The notes under the pieces: model-generated | Seen by the model: the letters and a program-made list of their open reading frames with translations, nothing else | Database searches by the model: none | Told to the model about the DNA's origin: nothing | Part shown: positions 14,354 through 54,572 of the stretch, in pieces | Numbering within the stretch: the first letter of the stretch is position 1 | How the letters are laid out: the number at the start of each line of letters is the position of its first letter | Translations under genes and position numbers: made by a program | Assembly: GCA_035621235.1 (NCBI GenBank) | Contig: CP141731.1 | Span: forward strand, 1,674,001-1,738,000 | DNA from: Actinomycetaceae bacterium MB13-C1-2 | GTDB taxonomy: Bacteria; Actinomycetota; Actinomycetes; Actinomycetales; Actinomycetaceae | Direction of reading: 5' to 3' | DNA length: 64,000 nucleotides

Positions 14354-15115
14354 TCACATTCGGTGGTACACCGCAAACCTTCCCGACGGCCCGTCGACGA
14401 CGGTCACCGGGGTGCGGAATACCTGGGTTAACACCTCATCCTGAATGATCTGGTCGGGGGTACCGGAGATCACGACTTTTCCCTCGTCCATAGCGACAAT
14501 GTGGTCGCTGTAGGCCGCGGCGAAGTTGATGTCATGAAGAACAATCACGACGGTCCGGCCCAACTCGTCTGCCGCGCGCCTTAGCTGAGTCATCATTTGC
14601 ACGGAGTGCTGGGCGTCCAGGTTATTGAGGGGTTCATCGAGCAACAGGTAGTCCGTGTCCTGCGCCAGGACCATAGCTACGTAGGCTCTTTGGCGCTGAC
14701 CACCGGACATCTGGTCGAGGAAGCGTTGCTCCAGACCGGTCATGTCGAGAAAGTCGATCGCTTCCGAAATCTTCTCCTCGTCCTCTGCGGTGAGTCGTCC
14801 ACCTGAGTACGGGTACCGACCAAACCCGACCAGCTGACGAACCGTCAGACGAGTGACGAAATGATTCTCCTGCCTCAAGATCGACACTTTTCGTGCCACA
14901 TCTCTAGAGGGCGTCTTGTGAACGTCGAGGCCGTCGATCTCCACCGAGCCGGCGGTGGGAGCGAGCAAACGCCCCATCATGGTCAACAGCGTTGATTTGC
15001 CTGCTCCGTTCGGGCCGACCAACCCAATTATCCCACCCTTGGGAAGGTCGAGGGAGACCGGACCTATCAGGGTCCCGTTCCCGTAGCGCTTCTCGAGCTC
15101 ACTCAGCTTGATCAC
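14354..15115 (-). CDS. Iron-siderophore ABC transporter ATP-binding protein
   Basis: FecE/FepC-type ATPase, 253 residues. Walker A GPNGAGKSTLL (about residue 37), signature MSGGQRQRAYVAMVLAQ, Walker B YLLLDEPLNNLDAQH and the switch His in VIVLHDINFAAAYSDH are all intact. It is the last gene of the four-gene operon and overlaps the preceding permease gene by 4 bases. Confidence 0.93.
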   Translation of the reverse strand: MIKLSELEKRYGNGTLIGPVSLDLPKGGIIGLVGPNGAGKSTLLTMMGRLLAPTAGSVEIDGLDVHKTPSRDVARKVSILRQENHFVTRLTVRQLVGFGRYPYSGGRLTAEDEEKISEAIDFLDMTGLEQRFLDQMSGGQRQRAYVAMVLAQDTDYLLLDEPLNNLDAQHSVQMMTQLRRAADELGRTVVIVLHDINFAAAYSDHIVAMDEGKVVISGTPDQIIQDEVLTQVFRTPVTVVDGPSGRFAVYHRM

Positions 15116-16362
15116 AATCGACCTCGTTTCATAATGACGATCAGGAAGGCGAGTCCACCGATTAACTCGACGATTACGGTCACCGCGTCAACCATCGTGA
15201 ACACATGCCGCAGTAGGAAATAGGCTCCGCCGAGGATAACGTAGCCGAGTAGCCACGCCACCGGCAGAATCCGCCGATGATCGTAAGTGTCGACCAGGGA
15301 ATAGGCGAGTGTTGCACAGAGGAACCCGAGGAAGGTCATTGGCCCGATAAGCGAGGTGGACATGGCGGAGAGGATCGCAACCAGAGTCAACATCAACATG
15401 ACCTGCCGCTTATGGTTCAGGCCGAGATTCGTGGAGGTTTCCGCGCCGAGTGAGAGCACATTGAGGCGACGCCCAAGCACCCATATGATGCCTCCCACAA
15501 CTACGCAGATCGGGACAACATAGACCAAAAGACCAGTCTCGGCGTTACCGATGTTGGCGAATAGCCGGGCGCGGAGAACATCGAACTCATTTGGGTCGAG
15601 CATTCTTTGCATGAAGGTTGAGATCGCACCAAGACCAGTGCCGATAACGATTCCGACTAGCAGCATCACGTGCAGACTCCCAAGCCGCCCGGAAAGCAGC
15701 CATGAGTAGAGCCCAACGGCGAACGCAACCATCAGAGTCACCTGCAACGCGAATCGCAAACCAGGGCTTACGGCCAAGACTCCAGTGGTACCAAACAGGT
15801 AAACAATCGAGGTTTGAATCAAAACAAACAGGGAATCGAAGCCCATGATCGACGGAGTGATGATCCGATTGTTGGTGACGGTCTGGAACGTCACCGTAGC
15901 GAAGGACTGGGCGAAGGTAACCACTGCGATAACGACCACTGCTGAGCCGTACATTCGCGCAACCCGCCACCACTTGTCGCCGAAAATCTCGAAATTATTG
16001 CCCCACGTCAGTATCAAGACCGTGACGGCAACAGCGGCCACGAGCAGCGCCGCTATCGTGAGGCGGTATTTGCGTTCATGTTTCACACTGGCGAAGGCAC
16101 CGGAGCGGTTGGGACGGCGGTTGAGCCGATTCTGCTCGGTGGGGCCAGACGATTCGTAGACTTTCGACACCTCGGAGCGGGCAGCGGCCTCTGAGGCGAG
16201 TTCGAGTGGTCCACAGCCGGCACCGAACACAGTCATGTCCGCCAGTTCAAGTTCGTGTTCTGCCCCCTCCACGATCTCTTCGGCGACCTCGGTAACGGCG
16301 GCCTCTCCACGCAACTGTGTGTACGAGGGGTGCTTGTTGGGACCACTAGGCTCAGCTGGCAC
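15112..16362 (-). CDS. Iron-siderophore ABC permease (FecCD), second
   Basis: FecCD-family membrane subunit with about nine hydrophobic helices from residue ~95 on. It has the loop GAETSTNLGLNH, matching the EAA-like coupling loop of this class. The first ~90 residues form an extra hydrophilic, Glu-rich tail not usual in the family. The GTG at 16362 is chosen: AGGAGG stands 5-6 bases upstream and the start overlaps the end of the preceding permease gene; the longer open frame to 16467 lacks a ribosome site and is a shadow. Confidence 0.9.
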   Translation of the reverse strand: MPAEPSGPNKHPSYTQLRGEAAVTEVAEEIVEGAEHELELADMTVFGAGCGPLELASEAAARSEVSKVYESSGPTEQNRLNRRPNRSGAFASVKHERKYRLTIAALLVAAVAVTVLILTWGNNFEIFGDKWWRVARMYGSAVVVIAVVTFAQSFATVTFQTVTNNRIITPSIMGFDSLFVLIQTSIVYLFGTTGVLAVSPGLRFALQVTLMVAFAVGLYSWLLSGRLGSLHVMLLVGIVIGTGLGAISTFMQRMLDPNEFDVLRARLFANIGNAETGLLVYVVPICVVVGGIIWVLGRRLNVLSLGAETSTNLGLNHKRQVMLMLTLVAILSAMSTSLIGPMTFLGFLCATLAYSLVDTYDHRRILPVAWLLGYVILGGAYFLLRHVFTMVDAVTVIVELIGGLAFLIVIMKRGRL

Positions 16363-17389
16363 TGGTCCTCCTCGTACGAAGAAGAAGTCCGATGAACACC
16401 ACTGCGCCGACTGCGCCGAGGACCAGGGAAACTGGTATCTCAAATGGCATGATAATTGTCCGCCCAATCAGGTCACAGATCGTGACTAGCCATATGCCAG
16501 CGAGAAAAACCCAGGGGATGTTCGTTCGCAAGTTGTCGCCGCGTACCAGGGATACCAGGTTCGGAACCACAAGGCCGAGGAAGGGGAGAGCCCCGACCAC
16601 GACAGTGACAACCCCGGTGACGATTGAGACCAGGGCTACTCCCAACAGAACCACTGCCTCGTAGTTGAGGCCGACGTTGGTCGCAACCTCTTTTCCGAGA
16701 CCAGCGACGGTAAACCTATCGGCGAAGATGACCACAAAGGCACATACGAGAAGTGCGATCCACAGTGGTTCGTAGCGACCCACTTCGATGCCCGTGAATC
16801 GGCCGGCAAACCAACTACCCAGAGTTTGAAGCAGGTTGTACCTAATCGCCAAGAATGTACTCAGTGCACCGACGACGGCACCGATCATTAGCCCGACGAT
16901 GGGAACTATTAGTGAGGAGCGAAGTTTGACACGGCTGAGGAACGCGAAGAACACCATGGTTCCCGCGAAGGCAAAGACGATGGCAATGACCATCTTCGTG
17001 AAGATACCCGACGTCGGCATAAAGATGTAGGTGAGCAGTAGACCTAGCCCGGCCCACTCAGTGGTCCCGACTGTAGTTGGTTCGACAAACCTGTTCTGTG
17101 TCAGTAGTTGCATGATGAGGCCGGCAATCGCCATTGACGCACCGGACAGCACTAGGGCGACCGTTCGTGGAACACGGGTGATCCAGAGGAACTCGTGCCC
17201 TCGGCCAGCCGTGTCTGTTATGTCTGCGACCCCGACGAAAAGCGAGAGTACTACCAGCGCAATCGTAAAAACGATTCCCAGCATGATCGGGAGGAACTTG
17301 GGCAGACGATGCTTTTGCGGAATACGTCTGGAAGGACTGGACGCATCAACGTTGGTAATGCGGGGTGCCGGGGCGGCGGGGGAGGCCAA
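16352..17389 (-). CDS. Iron-siderophore ABC permease (FecCD), first
   Basis: A 345-residue FecCD permease with nine to ten membrane segments, containing WITRVPRTVALVLSGASMAIAG (the family's RxPR motif near the N-terminus) and GKEVATNVGLNYEAV for ATPase contact. It starts at a TTG (17389) with AGGAG eight bases upstream. It pairs with the second permease as a heterodimer, as in FepD/FepG or CeuB/CeuC systems. Confidence 0.9.
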   Translation of the reverse strand: MASPAAPAPRITNVDASSPSRRIPQKHRLPKFLPIMLGIVFTIALVVLSLFVGVADITDTAGRGHEFLWITRVPRTVALVLSGASMAIAGLIMQLLTQNRFVEPTTVGTTEWAGLGLLLTYIFMPTSGIFTKMVIAIVFAFAGTMVFFAFLSRVKLRSSLIVPIVGLMIGAVVGALSTFLAIRYNLLQTLGSWFAGRFTGIEVGRYEPLWIALLVCAFVVIFADRFTVAGLGKEVATNVGLNYEAVVLLGVALVSIVTGVVTVVVGALPFLGLVVPNLVSLVRGDNLRTNIPWVFLAGIWLVTICDLIGRTIIMPFEIPVSLVLGAVGAVVFIGLLLRTRRTSAS

Positions 17390-17500
17390 GAATCAGACTC
17401 CTTCTGACTCGAGCAGGTTTCTCACCTACTAAAGCGGAGCGGAGTGCGTCGTGGCAACTGCACGCCTAGACACGACGCACTCCACCGGGATTCGTCTTGG

Positions 17501-18559
17501 CTACTTCTGAGCCTCGAACGCTTGTTTTAGCCCGGAGAGAACGTCCATGTATGCGTAGATGTCCTCGGTCAGGTAGTAGTCGGCGGGCATAATGTATATG
17601 GCTTGGTTAACGACTGCAGGGGTTGCTGCGAGAGATGCGGAACCATTGATCAACTCAAGGGCGGGAGTGGTTTCCTCTCCATCGCTACCGGCGAAGGCCG
17701 CGTCGCGGTCAAGAACCAAGTAGAAGTCGGGGTTCGATTCCGCGATTGCTTCGAGGGAGATATCGTCGCCCTGGTGATTGGTTGAGCCATCCTGATCGAG
17801 TGCGGGCGTTAGTCCCAATAGCGAGAAGTAGATGGACGCGCCGCGACCATCGGTCGGGTTAGAGTAGCGGATCTCGTTGCCGCTTGTGACCAGCCCCATC
17901 ACCGTCATTGCCGGATCGTAGGCCGCTTTGGTCTCCTCCAGCGACGTGTGGAACTGATCTACCAACTCGGTCGCCTTATCCTGCATACAGAAGATTTCGC
18001 CGAGCATCTGTGTGCTTGCCACAGCGTACTCATCCGCCGTCATCTCGTTGTTAGTGGTGTCGATGAAGGCGGCGCCCGGGGCGGCATCCTTCAGTGCGTC
18101 TGCGTGGTCACCGTAGCGGTATCCACTGATGATGACTGTCGGGTCGGCTTCGATCACCTTGGTGAAGTCCGGTTCGCCGTGGGAACCAGTGTCAAGGATT
18201 GAGTCGTCGTCCTTCATCGGGTTGTTGGGACTCATTAGGGTCCGCGGGGCGGCTGTCGGCTGAATACCCCAGTCAGCGATAGTGGCGAACATGCGGTTGT
18301 CAGTCACAACCACGGAGTCAACGCTCTCCACCGTGACTTCGTTGCCAGCCATGTCCGTTACGGTGACGGGATATGTGCACGACTCTGCGGCGGTGTCTTC
18401 GGCTGCTTCCTCGACATCGGAAGTAGCCGACTCCGCGGATGCCTCGGACTCACCCGCAGCCGGGGCGTTGCTGGAACAGCCAGCGGTCAGAACTAGGGCA
18501 GAGACTGCGGCCAGTGTTGCGTAAACGCGCCGCACGGGCAGGCGAGTACTTCTACTCAT
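17501..18559 (-). CDS. Siderophore-binding lipoprotein of iron ABC transporter
   Basis: This 352-residue substrate-binding protein of the FepB/CeuE (TroA-like) fold has a lipoprotein signal ending ALVLTAGCSS, then an acidic Ala/Glu/Ser linker. The binding domain shows VVVTDNRMFATIADWGI, TVIISGYRYG and DFYLVLDRDAA. It would capture a ferric siderophore outside the membrane and pass it to the two FecCD permeases downstream. The ATG at 18559 is preferred (GGAGG eight bases upstream); a longer frame to 18634 has no signal peptide at its start. An IdeR box lies 111 bases upstream. Confidence 0.9.
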   Translation of the reverse strand: MSRSTRLPVRRVYATLAAVSALVLTAGCSSNAPAAGESEASAESATSDVEEAAEDTAAESCTYPVTVTDMAGNEVTVESVDSVVVTDNRMFATIADWGIQPTAAPRTLMSPNNPMKDDDSILDTGSHGEPDFTKVIEADPTVIISGYRYGDHADALKDAAPGAAFIDTTNNEMTADEYAVASTQMLGEIFCMQDKATELVDQFHTSLEETKAAYDPAMTVMGLVTSGNEIRYSNPTDGRGASIYFSLLGLTPALDQDGSTNHQGDDISLEAIAESNPDFYLVLDRDAAFAGSDGEETTPALELINGSASLAATPAVVNQAIYIMPADYYLTEDIYAYMDVLSGLKQAFEAQK

Positions 18560-18669
18560 GTGTAAAGCCTCCAAATTGGATTGTGCGTGGGGCGAGCAGT
18601 GGCCCAGCCCCCGACGGTCGATGAGGGGTTCCAAACAACCAGGTCAGAACCCTGTTCCGTTCGTGGAAC

Positions 18670-18696
18670 TTAGGTAAGCCTAACCTAATAGGTTAG
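18670..18696. promoter_or_regulatory. IdeR/DtxR iron box with overlapping second palindrome
   Basis: TTAGGTAAGCCTAACCTAA at 18670-18688 differs at one position from the 19-bp IdeR/DtxR consensus. A second perfect palindrome, CTAACCTA-A-TAGGTTAG at 18680-18696, overlaps its right half, so two dimers could bind. The site lies between the divergent binding-protein gene and the hypothetical gene at 18773. It should repress siderophore uptake when iron is plentiful. Confidence 0.88.
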
Positions 18697-18772
18697 GTTA
18701 GTTTCAAGAGAATGTGAGATAGGTGGCCCCCCGGCCAGGGTGTTCGAACGCGGACGAGGATAGAGTTGTTCA

Positions 18773-19212: not shown

Positions 19213-20544
19213 ATGCCGACAACAGGGGCGAGACATGCGAGTGTGACTCAGACGAAGTCAGGTGGTTTGCGTCCTCTTTTGATCATCCTGATCGTTGCGT
19301 CGCTTCTGGCCCTCGTCGGAGGCGGAGTCTGGATGCTGTTGCGGGGCGGAGTTGAGACCCAGCCGGACGGGGGGATTGCTGCCACGCAGTCTGGGCAGCA
19401 GTCCGAGGCGGATCCGCTTCCAGAACCACAGTCTGAACCCGCTGTTGCGCCAGAACCCGAGCTGGCACCAGTGGATTTCACCATCGCGGCGGGCGGGGAC
19501 ATCCTGCTACACAACACGGTTTTTTGGGCGTCTCAGGAGGCAGATGGGCGTTACAACCTCTCAAGACTGCTCTCTACGACCGCCGCCTATGTTGAGGGAG
19601 CGGATTTGGCTCTGTGTCAAATGGAAGTTCCGATTGCGCAGGCTGGTCAGGAGCCGTCAAACTACCCGTTGTTCGCCGCGCCGTATGAGACGGCGGAGGA
19701 ACTGAAGGAGGCTGGTTGGGATGGTTGCTCAACCGCCAGCAACCATTCGGTGGACTGGGGTTTTGCGGGTCTTACAAACACTCTCGATCGGTTCGACGAG
19801 GCCGGGTTGGGGCATGCTGGTACGGCGCGCTCGGCCGAGGAGCTTCAAGCCCCTCAGTATTACGAGATCGAGAAGGATGGACAGACCCTGACTGTCGCGC
19901 ACATCTCTTTCGCGAACAATCTTAACGGAATGGAGATTCCCGCCGAAGCTCCGTGGTCGATCAACCTAAATGACATTCAAATGGTCCTCGAACAGGCGAA
20001 GCAGGCCCGAGACGACGGAGCGGACCTAGTTATTGTCTCTTACCACTGTTGCGCAGTTGAGTACACCTCGATTCCCGAAGACCTTCAGGTTTCTACTGCG
20101 CAGGCACTGGGCGAGTCGGGGTTAGTTGACATCATGATTTCGCACCACGCGCACGTTCCCAAACCGATCGATCGGGTGCCTGGTGGGCCGAACGGCGATG
20201 GAATGTGGGTCGCGTACGGTACGGGGAACTTCATCTCTGACCAAGACGAGAACTGCTGTGTTCCCGAGTCCAATGTCGGTGTTCTGGTTTTCTTTGAGGT
20301 TCAAAAGGCCGCCGATGGGGTAGTAACGGTTCCCGACGCATCCTGGTCGGCTGTTATGACCGAGAGGAAGTATGGCTACTACACCCGCGTCATTACAGCC
20401 GACGGTGCCGCTGACAGTCCGGTTCCCCTTGACGAGATCCAGTGGCGCCATCAAATGGTGGCCGACGTGATGAGCGAAGGACTCGGGTCGGAGCGGGGAG
20501 GGCCTCCCGTGGAGCCTGGAGTAACGACCGTCGTGGTCCAATGA
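19213..20544 (+). CDS. CapA-family metallophosphoesterase-like protein
   Basis: About 443 residues. One N-terminal membrane anchor (LLIILIVASLLALVGGGVWM) is followed by a Pro/Glu/Gln-rich spacer and then the CapA (PGA_cap) fold from residue ~85. Its conserved pieces are TIAAGGDILLH, STASNHSVDWGFAGL, VIVSYHCCAVEY, MISHHAHVPKPI and YGTGNFISDQ. CapA/PgsA proteins take part in poly-gamma-glutamate capsule export or related envelope functions; no capB/capC partners are nearby, so the role is open. ATG 19213 is preceded by GAGGAGAGGG; a TTG further upstream is less likely. Confidence 0.82.
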   Translation: MPTTGARHASVTQTKSGGLRPLLIILIVASLLALVGGGVWMLLRGGVETQPDGGIAATQSGQQSEADPLPEPQSEPAVAPEPELAPVDFTIAAGGDILLHNTVFWASQEADGRYNLSRLLSTTAAYVEGADLALCQMEVPIAQAGQEPSNYPLFAAPYETAEELKEAGWDGCSTASNHSVDWGFAGLTNTLDRFDEAGLGHAGTARSAEELQAPQYYEIEKDGQTLTVAHISFANNLNGMEIPAEAPWSINLNDIQMVLEQAKQARDDGADLVIVSYHCCAVEYTSIPEDLQVSTAQALGESGLVDIMISHHAHVPKPIDRVPGGPNGDGMWVAYGTGNFISDQDENCCVPESNVGVLVFFEVQKAADGVVTVPDASWSAVMTERKYGYYTRVITADGAADSPVPLDEIQWRHQMVADVMSEGLGSERGGPPVEPGVTTVVVQ

Positions 20545-20597
20545 GTCTGTTGCTCGCGATTTACCAGGTCCTCCGCGCCTACCCACGTTGCCTTACA

Positions 20598-20638
20598 TTC
20601 TACATCTGTAGTACGGTAGATAAACTACAGATGTAGAA
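20598..20638. promoter_or_regulatory. BlaI-type operator, 15-bp inverted repeat
   Basis: TTCTACATCTGTAGT at 20598-20612 and its perfect complement at 20624-20638 are separated by 11 bases. Each arm contains a TACA..TGTA half-palindrome typical of BlaI/MecI repressor sites. It lies 64 bases before the His-rich secreted protein gene; a related box (22766-22795) precedes blaI itself, suggesting shared control. Confidence 0.75.
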
Positions 20639-20701
20639 CGGTTCAATCCGAGGTGTGATGACTCGGTCGTTCTGCGATTAGTGCGATTAGGAGGTATGGA
20701 A

Positions 20702-21136
20702 ATGGGGAGATTGGGAGGCAGAACCAGCGGACTTGTGGCCGTGGCGCTGTTGGCGTTGGGCGGAACCGTCGGTACAGGCACGGTTGCGAGCGCGACCATG
20801 ATTGATTCTGTGACACCGGCGGTAGTCGCTTGGGAGTGTCCGCGCCAGGATGGAGTGCCGCAAGGAAGCGGTCTGCAAGATGGGACAGGACCGCATCACG
20901 GTAGTGGGCTCCGTGACGGTAGCAGCCCTCATCATGGTCAGGACATCGGACTCCGTGATGGTAGTGGTCGTTACCACAGTAGCGGAACCGCGCAGAGCTC
21001 AAACCTCGGAACGAATCAAGCAACAGGTACATCAGAGACGGGCGAGGTAGCGGTGCAACGGGGCGAGTGTCCCCGAATCTGTCCTAACGTGGGAACCGGG
21101 CTTCATAGAGGCCACCGTCACGCATCCGTTTACTGA
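20702..21136 (+). CDS. Secreted His/Gly-rich repeat protein
   Basis: A 144-residue protein with no recognised family. A Sec signal peptide (GLVAVALLALGGTVGTGTVASA) is followed by a low-complexity core of about three repeats, GSGLQDGTGPHH, GSGLRDGSSPHH and GLRDGSGRYHS, and a C-terminus with ECPRICPN and a final HRGHRHASVY. The paired Cys and many His suggest metal binding, by inference only. ATG 20702 is chosen because AGGAGG is seven bases upstream; an ATG at 20696 is too close. A strong BlaI-like operator lies just upstream, tying it to the adjacent blaI/M56 operon on the opposite strand. Confidence 0.65.
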   Translation: MGRLGGRTSGLVAVALLALGGTVGTGTVASATMIDSVTPAVVAWECPRQDGVPQGSGLQDGTGPHHGSGLRDGSSPHHGQDIGLRDGSGRYHSSGTAQSSNLGTNQATGTSETGEVAVQRGECPRICPNVGTGLHRGHRHASVY

Positions 21137-21150
21137 CGTACTCTGGTTGC

Positions 21151-22383
21151 CTAGTGGGAGCCGTGAGTTCCACTGGCTCCCACTCGATGCTTGTGTTGCC
21201 ACCCATTTGACTCGGAAGATGTGCCGTCATGAGACTCGGGCTCGGTTGTGCCTTCTTCTGCGGGGACAGTGTTGCTCTCGAGAGTGCCAGTGCTCTCCCG
21301 ATCGGGGTTGGCGCCCTCGTCCGCAGTTTCCTCGGTGAGGTTGGATAGGTCGGGCACTTCTGAGTGTCGCGTGGACTCGGTGGTGTCTGTGTCTGAAGCG
21401 TCGAAGACAGTATCCAACGTGGTTTCGGAGCTAGGGGAACTGTCGCCCCAAGCAACTGGAACCCCCAGTCCAGCGAGTAGCACTACCGTGGCGATAACTG
21501 TCTCTCTCCCCACCCGGCGTCCTCGTGTGCCGAGAGCCGATGACACTCGGTTCGCCAGTGCCCGTGACCCTGGCAGTAGGGCGACTGATGTCAAGGGACG
21601 AACGCCGTGGGACGCGGAGGCGGTGACCAAGAGCTGCGCATAGTCACACCTCTGCTCGGTGTTGGCATCCGCTAGAGCTGTCTGGTCGCAGGCAATTTCC
21701 GCTGCCTCAGCAGAGTTCTTGGCTGCCAATCTCAGCAGAGGATTCCACCACTGCAGGGCGACCACCACGTTCAGCGCTAGCCGAGTTAGCGTATCGTGAC
21801 GTCGAATATGTGCTAGTTCGTGGCGAAGCACGAAACGCGAGTGGAATCGGGGATCGGCGGGCAATAGCAGCCGCGGGCGAATGATGCCTACGACCGCGGG
21901 TGAGTCTAGCCCGCAGATCAGTACAACGGAAGGTCGATACGACAGATTCAGGCGGTCCGATTCGCGCTCAATCTGAGTCAGCAGATCTGCACTCGCGGGC
22001 AGTGTCCCCGCCTGGCGCACGTGTCTCCTTAGCCGTAAATGCTGCACCACTAGGATGCCGAGGGCGATCACAGTCCCCGTTGCCCAGAGACCAATCAGTA
22101 GCGGAAGTAGCCACTCGGTCGAAGTGGATGCCGTCATTGAAGCGGAATCCAAGGCAGTTCCCTGAAGTGCTCTCGCTTCGGATGCGGGCAACGCACGCCC
22201 CGGAATAGCTAAGATTTCAGGACGAAAAGGAAAAAGCCACGCCACGGCGATCAGTGTCCAGCTGGTGCTCAGGGCGGCGCCACGGTAGCGTCCTCGCAAT
22301 AGGAAGGTGGCGATGCTCAACGTCAAAGTGAGGGCAGTCATGACAGCTACCCATAGAACCAGACTTTGGACGAGGCTAGTCAT
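21151..22383 (-). CDS. M56-family membrane metallopeptidase (BlaR1-like, sensor domain absent)
   Basis: A 410-residue polytopic protein. Three to four N-terminal membrane helices precede the zinc protease motif HELAHIRRHDTLTRL, then LQWWNPLLRLAAKNSAEAAEIACDQTAL, the M56 signature of BlaR1/MecR1. A last membrane helix (VIATVVLLAGLGVPVAW) precedes a ~95-residue extracellular tail rich in Ser, Thr and Glu. The penicillin-binding sensor domain of true BlaR1 is missing, so the inducer is unlikely to be sensed the same way. Its ATG overlaps the blaI stop; the pair should act as protease and target repressor. Confidence 0.85.
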   Translation of the reverse strand: MTSLVQSLVLWVAVMTALTLTLSIATFLLRGRYRGAALSTSWTLIAVAWLFPFRPEILAIPGRALPASEARALQGTALDSASMTASTSTEWLLPLLIGLWATGTVIALGILVVQHLRLRRHVRQAGTLPASADLLTQIERESDRLNLSYRPSVVLICGLDSPAVVGIIRPRLLLPADPRFHSRFVLRHELAHIRRHDTLTRLALNVVVALQWWNPLLRLAAKNSAEAAEIACDQTALADANTEQRCDYAQLLVTASASHGVRPLTSVALLPGSRALANRVSSALGTRGRRVGRETVIATVVLLAGLGVPVAWGDSSPSSETTLDTVFDASDTDTTESTRHSEVPDLSNLTEETADEGANPDRESTGTLESNTVPAEEGTTEPESHDGTSSESNGWQHKHRVGASGTHGSH

Positions 22384-22756
22384 CTTCCGTTCGCCTCGCC
22401 TCTATCCAGGCTGAAAGCTCGTGGATGTCCCGCTCCGAGACGGTGCCTTGATCTGCGAACGCGGCCACCAGTCCCTTCAGTGAAAATCCTGCGTGCTTCG
22501 AAGCAAAACTGCGGGCTTCAGCACTCATGTATTCGCCGCGGTCCACAATGGCGGCGTAGTTGATCTCTCGTCCGGTACGCGTTTTTGAAACGAATCCGCG
22601 CTCGCAGAGTCGAGTAAGGAAGGTCGAGACTGTTTGGATCTTCCAGACGTGGGAGTCCGAGAGCGCGTTAACGACCTCTCTGGATGTCATGGTCGACCCC
22701 GGCGAGTCCCATAGCACGTTCATGACTTCCAACTCTGCGTCGGGCAGTAGCTCCAT
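22376..22756 (-). CDS. blaI: BlaI/MecI/CopY-family transcriptional repressor
   Basis: The 126-residue protein has the winged-helix domain of the penicillinase-repressor family: ELEVMNVLWDSPGSTMTSREVV at the start and the recognition region VWKIQTVSTFLTRLCERGFV. The second half would form the dimer and cleavage region. It is co-transcribed with the M56 protease gene, an arrangement that lets the protease inactivate it. AGGAG precedes ATG 22756. Likely autoregulated through the box at 22766. Confidence 0.88.
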   Translation of the reverse strand: MELLPDAELEVMNVLWDSPGSTMTSREVVNALSDSHVWKIQTVSTFLTRLCERGFVSKTRTGREINYAAIVDRGEYMSAEARSFASKHAGFSLKGLVAAFADQGTVSERDIHELSAWIEARRTEDD

Positions 22757-22765
22757 CGGCGCTCC

Positions 22766-22795
22766 TTCTACATCTGTCGTACTGTCATGGTAGAA
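22766..22795. promoter_or_regulatory. Probable BlaI operator in front of blaI
   Basis: TTCTACATCTGTCGTAC begins at 22766 and matches the first arm of the operator at 20598 except for one base; GTAGAA at 22790-22795 closes an imperfect palindrome. It lies within 40 bases upstream of the blaI start on the minus strand. Confidence 0.65.
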
Positions 22796-22908
22796 CGCTC
22801 CGCTTCAGAGCACAATGATCATCACGCGCCAAAAGTCGCCGTTTGAAGAGACGCGCCTCGTTTCTGACGCGAATCAATCGGCCAGTAGAGTCAATCACCA
22901 GAGATATC

Positions 22909-22958: not shown

Positions 22959-24320
22959 CTACTTGGACTCCCCGTCCAGGTCGTCAACGTTGAGCGAGAA
23001 GCTTCCGTCATCTTCTACAGCTTCCGCCGCTGCCGCGGCGGCTTCTGCCTCTGCTTGCGCGCGGTCGGTTGTGAAGTCGGTCAGATCAACCTCGTTGCCC
23101 TCGGTGTCCTTCACTTTTGCGTCGGCTAGCACAGACACCAAAGCCTTGGTCCGGGCGAGCTCACCGTACATGTTCTGAACCTGCTGCTGATCAGAGAACA
23201 TCTGGTTCAGGTCGATTCCGAAGTTGCGAGCAGTGGTCATCATGAAGTCGACGAGCTCCTGCTGACCGACCTGGATCTCGCGGTTTTGGGCAAGAGTGTC
23301 GAGGAAGATTTGCTGACGAATATCTTTTTCGATCCCCGCTTTCGTCTCTTCCTTTGCGTCCTCGTCGGCGTCCTCACCTACGCGGTGCTCTACCTCGTGA
23401 TCGACCACGGATGCGGGAAGCAGAATCTCGGTCTGGTCAAGTAGTCTGTCTAGAAGAATGTCGCGAGCCTGCAGCGCCTGAGCTCCGCGCTTGCCCTCTC
23501 GGACCTGTTTCTCGGTGTCCTCGCGCAGTTCCGCAGCGGTATCGAATTCGGAGACCATCTGTGCGAAGTCATCGTCAACCTCGGGGAGTTCGCGCTCTTT
23601 GACGCCATGGACGGTGACATTGATGGTGGCTTCTTTACCCGCGTGCTCTCCGCCAAGGATTGTTGAGGTAAAGGTGATGTCATCGCCAGATTTCGCGCCG
23701 CGCAGTGCCTCGTCCTGGCCTTCAAGCATCGTCCCAGAGCCGAGTTCGTAGGAGACGTCAGCAAGCTGATCGATCTCTTCATCGTCAACCGTTGCGGTGA
23801 TATCGAGAGTTAGGAAATCGCCGTCCTTTGCTTCGCGGTCGAGCGGCTTGAGAGTGGCGAAGCGGGTGCGCAACTCCATCAGTTCGGCATCGATGTCCTC
23901 GTCGGCGACCTCAATGGGATCAACCTCGAGTTCCAAGTCGGCCAAATCGGGAAGATCAAAGTCCGGAACAATATTCAGTATGGCTTCGAACTCTAGTTTG
24001 CCGCCCTGCTCGCCCTCAGTGTTCGGGACCGACTTTACGTCGACCTCGGGTTGAGCAAGGGGGCGCAGGTTGTTTTCGAGGATCGCCTGCGACAGGTACT
24101 CCGGAAGCACCTGATTGACTACCTGCTCGATTACCATTCCGCGACCAAAGCGTTGGTCGATCACACGGGGAGGAACGTGTCCCTGGCGGAAGCCAGGAAT
24201 GTTCACCTGGGATGCGATGTCCTTGTAGGCGGCATCCATTGCAGGCTTTAGCTCGTCATAGTCAACTTCGACAACCAGCTTGGCCTTTGTCGGCTCAAGT
24301 GTCTCTGCGGTGCTTTTCAC
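22959..24320 (-). CDS. tig: Trigger factor, ribosome-associated chaperone
   Basis: A 453-residue cytosolic chaperone and peptidyl-prolyl isomerase that binds nascent chains at the ribosome exit. The ribosome-binding signature is NIPGFRQGHVPPRVIDQRFG near residue 45; the FKBP-like domain spans about 160-250, followed by the long helical C-terminal arms and an Ala/Glu-rich tail. The GTG at 24320 has GGAG upstream; the extra upstream codons do not resemble the family. It precedes the clpP1-clpP2-clpX block in a common actinobacterial order, but on the opposite strand. Confidence 0.95.
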   Translation of the reverse strand: MKSTAETLEPTKAKLVVEVDYDELKPAMDAAYKDIASQVNIPGFRQGHVPPRVIDQRFGRGMVIEQVVNQVLPEYLSQAILENNLRPLAQPEVDVKSVPNTEGEQGGKLEFEAILNIVPDFDLPDLADLELEVDPIEVADEDIDAELMELRTRFATLKPLDREAKDGDFLTLDITATVDDEEIDQLADVSYELGSGTMLEGQDEALRGAKSGDDITFTSTILGGEHAGKEATINVTVHGVKERELPEVDDDFAQMVSEFDTAAELREDTEKQVREGKRGAQALQARDILLDRLLDQTEILLPASVVDHEVEHRVGEDADEDAKEETKAGIEKDIRQQIFLDTLAQNREIQVGQQELVDFMMTTARNFGIDLNQMFSDQQQVQNMYGELARTKALVSVLADAKVKDTEGNEVDLTDFTTDRAQAEAEAAAAAAEAVEDDGSFSLNVDDLDGESK

Positions 24321-24549
24321 GCGAAATACTCCAAGGTCTAGTTCTGTAGGGGCCGGTTTGGGACGGTCCCGCCTCGTGGGCCGCCAGACTTGGCGAGTCC
24401 ACAACCCTCACAATGCTACGGCAGGGTCCAAGTAAACCCCTCACTGATCGAGGCGGCTGTAACGTATTCCTCGCCCGCAACGGGTCCAAGTGGAGTTGCG
24501 CAAGGACGATCAAGCTATAGTATGGAGGTCGTCTCCAAACGGAGCTACT

Positions 24550-24623
24550 GCGGATGTAGCTCAATGGTAGAGCCTCTGCCTTCCAAGCAGATGGTGCGGG
24601 TTCGATTCCCGTCATCCGCTCCA
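24550..24623 (+). tRNA. tRNA-Gly(TCC)
   Basis: Acceptor arms GCGGATG and CATCCGC pair perfectly; the D-loop has AATGGTAGA, the anticodon loop CTTCCAA gives TCC, and the T-loop is GTTCGATTC. CCA is encoded at 24621-24623. A small hairpin CCACCC-AGA-GGGTGG follows. A TATAGT -10 box lies at 24516. Confidence 0.95.
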
Positions 24624-45974: not shown

Positions 45975-46010
45975 TCGAGGCAGTTATCTGGTCGCAGATA
46001 ACTGCCTCGA
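45975..46010. terminator. Terminator after the ABC transporter operon
   Basis: A perfect 16-bp stem TCGAGGCAGTTATCTG / CAGATAACTGCCTCGA with a 4-base loop GTCG, 26 bases after the permease stop. The U-run is lacking but the hairpin is very stable. Nothing else is seen in 46011-46139. Confidence 0.8.
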
Positions 46011-54533: not shown

Positions 54534-54572
54534 GATTGGGTGGCGGTTCTAAGTTAGAACCGCCACCCAATC
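54534..54572. terminator. Bidirectional terminator between convergent genes
   Basis: A perfect 19-bp inverted repeat (GATTGGGTGGCGGTTCTAA and complement) around a single G, between the binding-protein stop and the GH183 stop on the other strand. Confidence 0.85.

Follow-up and report, generated by a model that had tools for sequence, protein, structure and literature searches.

Organization of the locus

The stretch of DNA analysed here (the window, 64 kb; all positions are window coordinates unless stated) contains a cassette of three genes, located between a PGA_cap-family gene (19213-20544, + strand) and the trigger factor gene (22959-24320, - strand). The first gene of the cassette (20702..21136, +) encodes a secreted repeat protein of 144 aa. 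The second (21151..22383, -) encodes an M56 (BlaR1-type) membrane metalloprotease of 410 aa, which matches PF05569 with an E value of 2.5e-34. The third (22376..22756, -) encodes a BlaI-family repressor of 126 aa, which matches PF03965 with 94.6 bits (cutoff 22.6, E 6.5e-27). The secreted gene faces the other two in a convergent arrangement, and the blaI ORF overlaps the start of the M56 ORF by eight bases. No description of this cassette was found in the literature searched, the search being limited in depth.

The genome of the window probably belongs to the genus Scrofimicrobium. The gene order without the cassette is seen in genome G003, where PGA_cap is followed by tRNA-Gly, tig, clpP1, clpP2, and clpX. 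The segment with tig and tRNA-Gly (22959-24623) is inverted in the window relative to clpP1-clpP2-clpX; in other Scrofimicrobium genomes, tig is co-directional with clpP1. Elsewhere in the window, siderophore-type ABC uptake genes occupy positions 14354-18559, and ahead of them, near 18660-18700, lies a TTAGGTAAGCCTAACCTAA-like palindrome, which we take to resemble a DtxR/iron box.

Operators and putative promoters

Upstream of the secreted gene lies TTCTACATCTGTAGTACGGTAGATAAACTACAGATGTAGAA (20598-20638). Its arms, TTCTACATCTGTAGT (20598-20612) and ACTACAGATGTAGAA (20624-20638), are complementary at 15 of 15 positions and are separated by 11 nt. A preliminary description of this DNA had regarded the site as a BlaI-type operator with 15-bp arms. 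The site itself was confirmed, but its anatomy had to be revised. Each 15-nt arm holds a complete dyad (CTACA-NN-TGTAG), for which reason a single operator with long arms was rejected and the box is read as a mirror-image pair of two complete operators. The first, O1 (CTACATCTGTAG, 20600..20611), is a perfect BlaI-type dyad, and the second, O2 (CTACAGATGTAG, 20625..20636), is its mirror image, with 25 bp between their starts. A third operator, O3 (CTACATCTGTCG, 22768..22779), is a single dyad in the promoter/RBS region of blaI, 11 bp ahead of the start codon, and resembles the dyads of Scrofimicrobium canadense and G414. The same description had stated that the first arm recurs ahead of blaI, which holds: positions 22766-22785 are 90% identical to it over 20 nt, with 14 of 15 identities within the arm. 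Dyads of the TACANNTGTA type are therefore present, as far as the sequence tells, at both the repressor's own promoter and that of the putative target.

A consensus promoter scan reported no sigma-70 site, and the hexamers were assigned by reading the sequence. For the secreted gene, a putative -35 element, TTGCCT (20589..20594, +), precedes the box, and a putative -10 element, TACGGT (20613..20618, +), follows directly after the TGTAG of O1. The TTGC is kept in S. canadense (TTGCGT) at an equal distance from the box. For blaI, the putative -35 TTGTGC (22810-22815, -) and -10 TACCAT (22787..22792, -) are separated by 17 nt; the corresponding place in S. canadense reads TTGCTT-17-TAGCAT.

Perfect inverted repeats with arms of at least 12 and loops of 3-30 were found 25 times in the window, as nested versions of seven places. 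Twenty first-order Markov copies of the window yielded one such repeat in total, and none with arms of at least 15. Two other places, at 45975-46010 and 54534-54572, carry perfect inverted repeats of 16 and 18 bp with short loops, possibly terminators. The O1-O2 box is the sole mirror pair in the window under a dyad-pair rule that demands two dyads with at most three mismatches each, one of them with at most two, spaced 23-28 bp apart, a rule like that used for the other blaI promoters described below. In the genome of 2.58 Mb, CTACANNTGTNGTA has two exact matches, both inside the cassette. The looser TACANNTGTA occurs at eight places, two of them in the cassette, and its reversed control at 17. 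The remaining six, examined in a search for further regulon members, comprise four within called ORFs and two intergenic places beside other regulators.

Conservation in Scrofimicrobium canadense

The same three genes are carried, at a different locus, by S. canadense (G004; contig NZ_VULO01000015.1). Identity between the two species amounts to 40-41% for M56, 67% for BlaI, and 42% for the secreted protein. The box ahead of the S. canadense secreted gene, TTCTACGTCTGTAGTACGGTTGACTTACTACAGACGTAGAA, has equal length and equal 25-bp spacing, and its counterparts of O1 and O2 are CTACGTCTGTAG and CTACAGACGTAG. It differs by one change per arm (A>G/T>C); since the change in one arm mirrors that in the other, the arms stay complementary. 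At the DNA level, the 44-bp operator block matches separately (86%); the secreted gene shows no DNA match of its own, and the flanks of the box align poorly. The TACGGT next to the stem is conserved as well as the stem itself.

The blaI boxes of the two cassettes are CTACATCTGTCGTA and CTACAACTGTCGTA. With CTACRNCTGTNGTA, a pattern derived from the sites already seen, all exact matches lie in the cassette in both the S. canadense genome (3/3) and the window genome (2/2). The four genomes of the genus without the cassette contain 0, 1, 1, and 0 matches. PF03965 is found over its cutoff in two of six genus genomes, exactly those with the cassette, which was found in these two species only.

BlaI promoters in other bacteria

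Comparison loci were chosen from blaI genes picked by protein sequence only, N-terminal patterns being used to keep 80 of 155 BlaI relatives. S. canadense (L035) was left out, and the other 79 loci (L036-L114) were compared; they come mostly from related Clostridia of the Oscillospiraceae type and therefore do not represent 79 independent events. A mirror dyad pair lies upstream of blaI in 59 of them, and in 56 of these the dyads are 23-28 bp apart. Among 3950 first-order Markov copies, 16 contained such a pair. The motif KACANNTGTM was found within 120 nt upstream of blaI at 20 of the 79 loci and in 6 of 1432 random windows. In many of these blaI promoters, the first dyad has TATAAT or a similar -10 after its inner TGTAG. 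In G414, TACGTT occupies the -10 place held by TACGGT in the window.

The paired pattern was also detected in 17 of 394 genomes of the class, the window genome included. In the other 16 (L125-L140), a CTACRNNTGTAG dyad pair, closely resembling the BlaI double operator, adjoins a FAD-monooxygenase-like gene, with a TetR-like ORF in 14 of the 16; both names come from reading the translations. The shape of the box alone was consequently rejected as proof of BlaI. Because the same mirror pairs occur at independently chosen blaI promoters, the box is concluded, on sequence grounds, to be a standard BlaI double operator ahead of a new target. Repression by BlaI of both its own operon and the secreted gene is very probable, given that the operators are unique to the cassette and conserved with it, and that mirror pairs stand at other blaI promoters.

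The preliminary description had proposed that the regulatory pair controls the adjacent exported protein instead of a beta-lactamase. Such control is supported by S. canadense, where the operators, their order, and their geometry are conserved along with the three genes. As to the beta-lactamase, the sole Beta-lactamase2 gene found in the genome (G000:C1:1930208-1930762) encodes a class-A-beta-lactamase-like serine hydrolase, with STYK and SDN motifs recognized by inspection, and no BlaI-type box was present in its 3.4-kb locus. The boxed neighbour in the cassette is the secreted protein, and not a beta-lactamase or PBP2a gene.

The three proteins

The M56 protein has the zinc site of its family, HExxH and ExxxD, formed by H188, E189, H192, E229, and D233. 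Neither these residues nor D197 and Y248 vary among the 24 M56 sequences aligned, and all of them agree with those named for BlaR1 in PMC9834060. Pfam gave no match to a penicillin-binding sensor domain on this protein. Instead, it ends in a tail of about 99 aa, acidic, rich in Ser/Thr, predicted to be disordered, and with a His-containing end. An AlphaFold2 model built on the 24-row alignment has a mean pLDDT of 74; most of the membrane/protease part is modelled with confidence, and residues 315-410 are almost wholly below 50. Below 0.001, a Foldseek search with this model matched nothing but BlaR1 (five entries, six chains); relative to the query, the TM-scores were modest (0.36-0.46). The last 60 residues contain five His in the window protein and six in that of S. 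canadense, and the His residues of the tail end are common to both species. By the same measure, His reaches no more than 5% in the 74 M56 ORFs found in 72 of the 79 other loci, though most of these end without such a tail.

The BlaI protein matches the structures of MecI and BlaI by sequence. The site at which MecI is cut has been given as N101-F102 (PMC3305447) and aligns to A99-F100 of BlaI, with the Phe kept and the Asn replaced by Ala. The Cys-X-Cys motif of CopY is absent from BlaI, whose single Cys (LCERG) is lacking in the S. canadense protein.

The N-terminus encoded by the secreted ORF is hydrophobic, and the best start is the ATG at 20702, 7 nt after GGAGG. Behind the signal peptide, the window protein contains three units of 12-14 aa, such as GLQDGTGPHHGS, two Cys-Pro-Arg elements, and a His-containing C-terminus. 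The S. canadense protein is longer (242 aa) and has seven units. His accounts for 8 of 144 residues in the former and 10 of 242 in the latter. Neither Pfam nor NCBIfam families matched the secreted protein. Among 396 genomes of the order, plasmids, and viral contigs, no credible relative was found outside the two species, a search limited by low complexity. Weak matches were obtained at nine loci, where the one open frame that passed the repeat filter proved to be a Gly-Ser-rich stretch without relation to it. When the 80 blaI loci were screened for small secreted Gly/His ORFs, 18 raw candidates emerged, none with this repeat; this negative is weak because the screen also overlooked the S. canadense gene already known in L035. 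That the secreted ORF is a spurious gene call is extremely unlikely: its low complexity and missing family match would allow it, but the frame, signal peptide, and repeats recur in S. canadense, and the well-placed GGAGG and a dedicated double operator precede it.

Relation to known systems

The bla divergon of Bacillus licheniformis 749/I and Staphylococcus aureus likewise combines BlaI and an M56 protein in one operon, and PMC3305447 places both the target and blaI under BlaI-type operators, three in number (OP1-OP3), as here. The divergon differs in that its target is a beta-lactamase; the present cassette has a secreted repeat protein in this position, convergent genes, and an M56 protein without the sensor domain. 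A BlaI-family regulator and a BlaR1-family protease also control a target unrelated to beta-lactams in Synechocystis, where they are named PetR and PetP; PetP has been proposed to be copper-dependent (PMC7896320; PMC12292863). PetR-PetP controls plastocyanin and cytochrome c6, and PetR also activates. The proposed link to copper concerns PetR-PetP.

The copper repressors CopY/CopR have the protein family and the TACANNTGTA core in common with this BlaI, with two sites in E. hirae (PMC7253601). They differ from it in that BlaI is without the CxC metal motif and has a partner protease. Furthermore, their extended consensus, RNYKACANNTGTMRNY, is missed at the outer positions of O1 and O2. An actinobacterial pair of BlaI and a BlaR1 homologue exists in Mycobacterium tuberculosis, presumably Rv1846c/Rv1845c. 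As in the window, its M56 protein is described without a sensor domain in PMC9834060. There, the genes under BlaI control are blaC and one linked to ATP synthase (PMC12565901), in contrast to the local secreted target proposed here. The cassette appears to put a switch of a known kind to use for a secreted protein.

Proposed mechanism and signal

The cassette would act as a switch built from a repressor (BlaI) and a protease (M56), with the secreted repeat protein as its main output. At rest, BlaI dimers would occupy O1 and O2, bracketing the putative -10 of the secreted gene, as well as O3, and both units would be off, as suggested by the geometry and conservation of the operators. An extracellular signal would then reach M56, with its intact gluzincin site, its flexible tail ending in histidines, and no beta-lactam sensor. 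Activated M56 would inactivate BlaI, probably through a cut close to A99-F100, the equivalent of N101-F102 in MecI. Upon loss of BlaI, the blaI-M56 operon would be expressed together with the secreted gene. The exported product is most likely a disordered His/Gly-containing repeat protein that may bind something at the cell surface.

The preliminary description had named envelope stress or metal as conceivable triggers. The leading guess, made with low confidence, is that a transition metal is sensed by the M56 tail and bound by the secreted product. The His-ended tail and the HH repeats are the reason for leaning to a metal; this step is drawn from amino-acid composition only, and the high probability given to BlaI control does not extend to it. 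PetR-PetP of Synechocystis offers a precedent for a BlaI/BlaR1-type pair with a proposed response to copper (PMC7896320). The complete form of this idea, a mobile metal-homeostasis cassette in which the tail reads extracellular metal, M56 cuts BlaI, and the secreted protein is released, is accordingly put forward as a rather improbable one.

It is possible, albeit doubtful, that the switch is instead triggered by cell-wall damage, through beta-lactams or peptidoglycan fragments as in B. licheniformis, and that the secreted protein serves to protect or modify the envelope. The homology to BlaI/BlaR1 speaks for such a trigger, as does the sensor-less M56 of M. tuberculosis (PMC9834060), and a peptidoglycan dipeptide is reported in PMC3305447 to free BlaI and MecI from their operators. 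However, this M56 is without a penicillin-binding domain, the beta-lactamase-like gene has no box, and no enzyme or wall-binding domain was recognized by Pfam in the secreted protein.

Another explanation, which appears unlikely, considers the cassette a phage-borne accessory set, with a secreted protein for competition or host interaction that BlaI/M56 silences until an envelope signal arrives. In S. canadense, the cassette (L024:5042-8138) lies among matches to a phage helicase, HNH, terminase-small-subunit, and a phage metK-like/methylase pair. To its left is a diverged duplicate, of about 75 bp, of the right-hand flank, which is the start of the phage metK-like gene (score 32; shuffled sequences reached at most 16). 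The patchy presence of the cassette, whose M56 occurs in 2 of 213 genomes of the family, points in the same direction. Against this, no phage genes flank the cassette in the window, no relative of it was found among the viral contigs, and plasmids contain no relative of the secreted protein. Partial M56 matches were seen in seven plasmid records, and BlaI relatives in plasmids and phages only under 60% identity.

The preferred reading, a BlaI-controlled switch, also has to be weighed against the long inverted repeat being the operator of another regulator, e.g., TetR, or an RNA hairpin, with blaI as a bystander. This is very unlikely. The paired pattern does stand beside FAD-monooxygenase/TetR-like genes in the 16 further genomes of the class, and RNA folding of a 15-bp stem is conceivable. 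Nevertheless, both species have the box again at blaI, all strong copies in the genome lie in the cassette, and the geometry is shared by the 59 blaI promoters. For the hairpin in particular, no Rfam element matched the box, no terminator-like site was called at 20598-20638, and the TACGGT beside the stem is equally conserved.

Significance

In other bacteria, a BlaI-type switch turns on penicillin resistance, and BlaI/M56 pairs, which are widespread, are usually labelled as antibiotic-resistance regulators. The target defined by the operators at this locus would be a secreted protein instead of a resistance gene. Mirror-image dyads 23-28 bp apart around a -10 offer a usable search rule for the targets of BlaI-type repressors. 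The M56 receptor would have to sense its signal via an unstructured tail and not through a penicillin-binding domain. If the metal guess is true, the HH-Gly-Ser repeats, which resemble the tail, would bind the same metal, and a negative feedback loop would be closed outside the cell. With three genes and three operators, the cassette may provide a small, self-contained system for asking what sensor-less M56 proteases detect.
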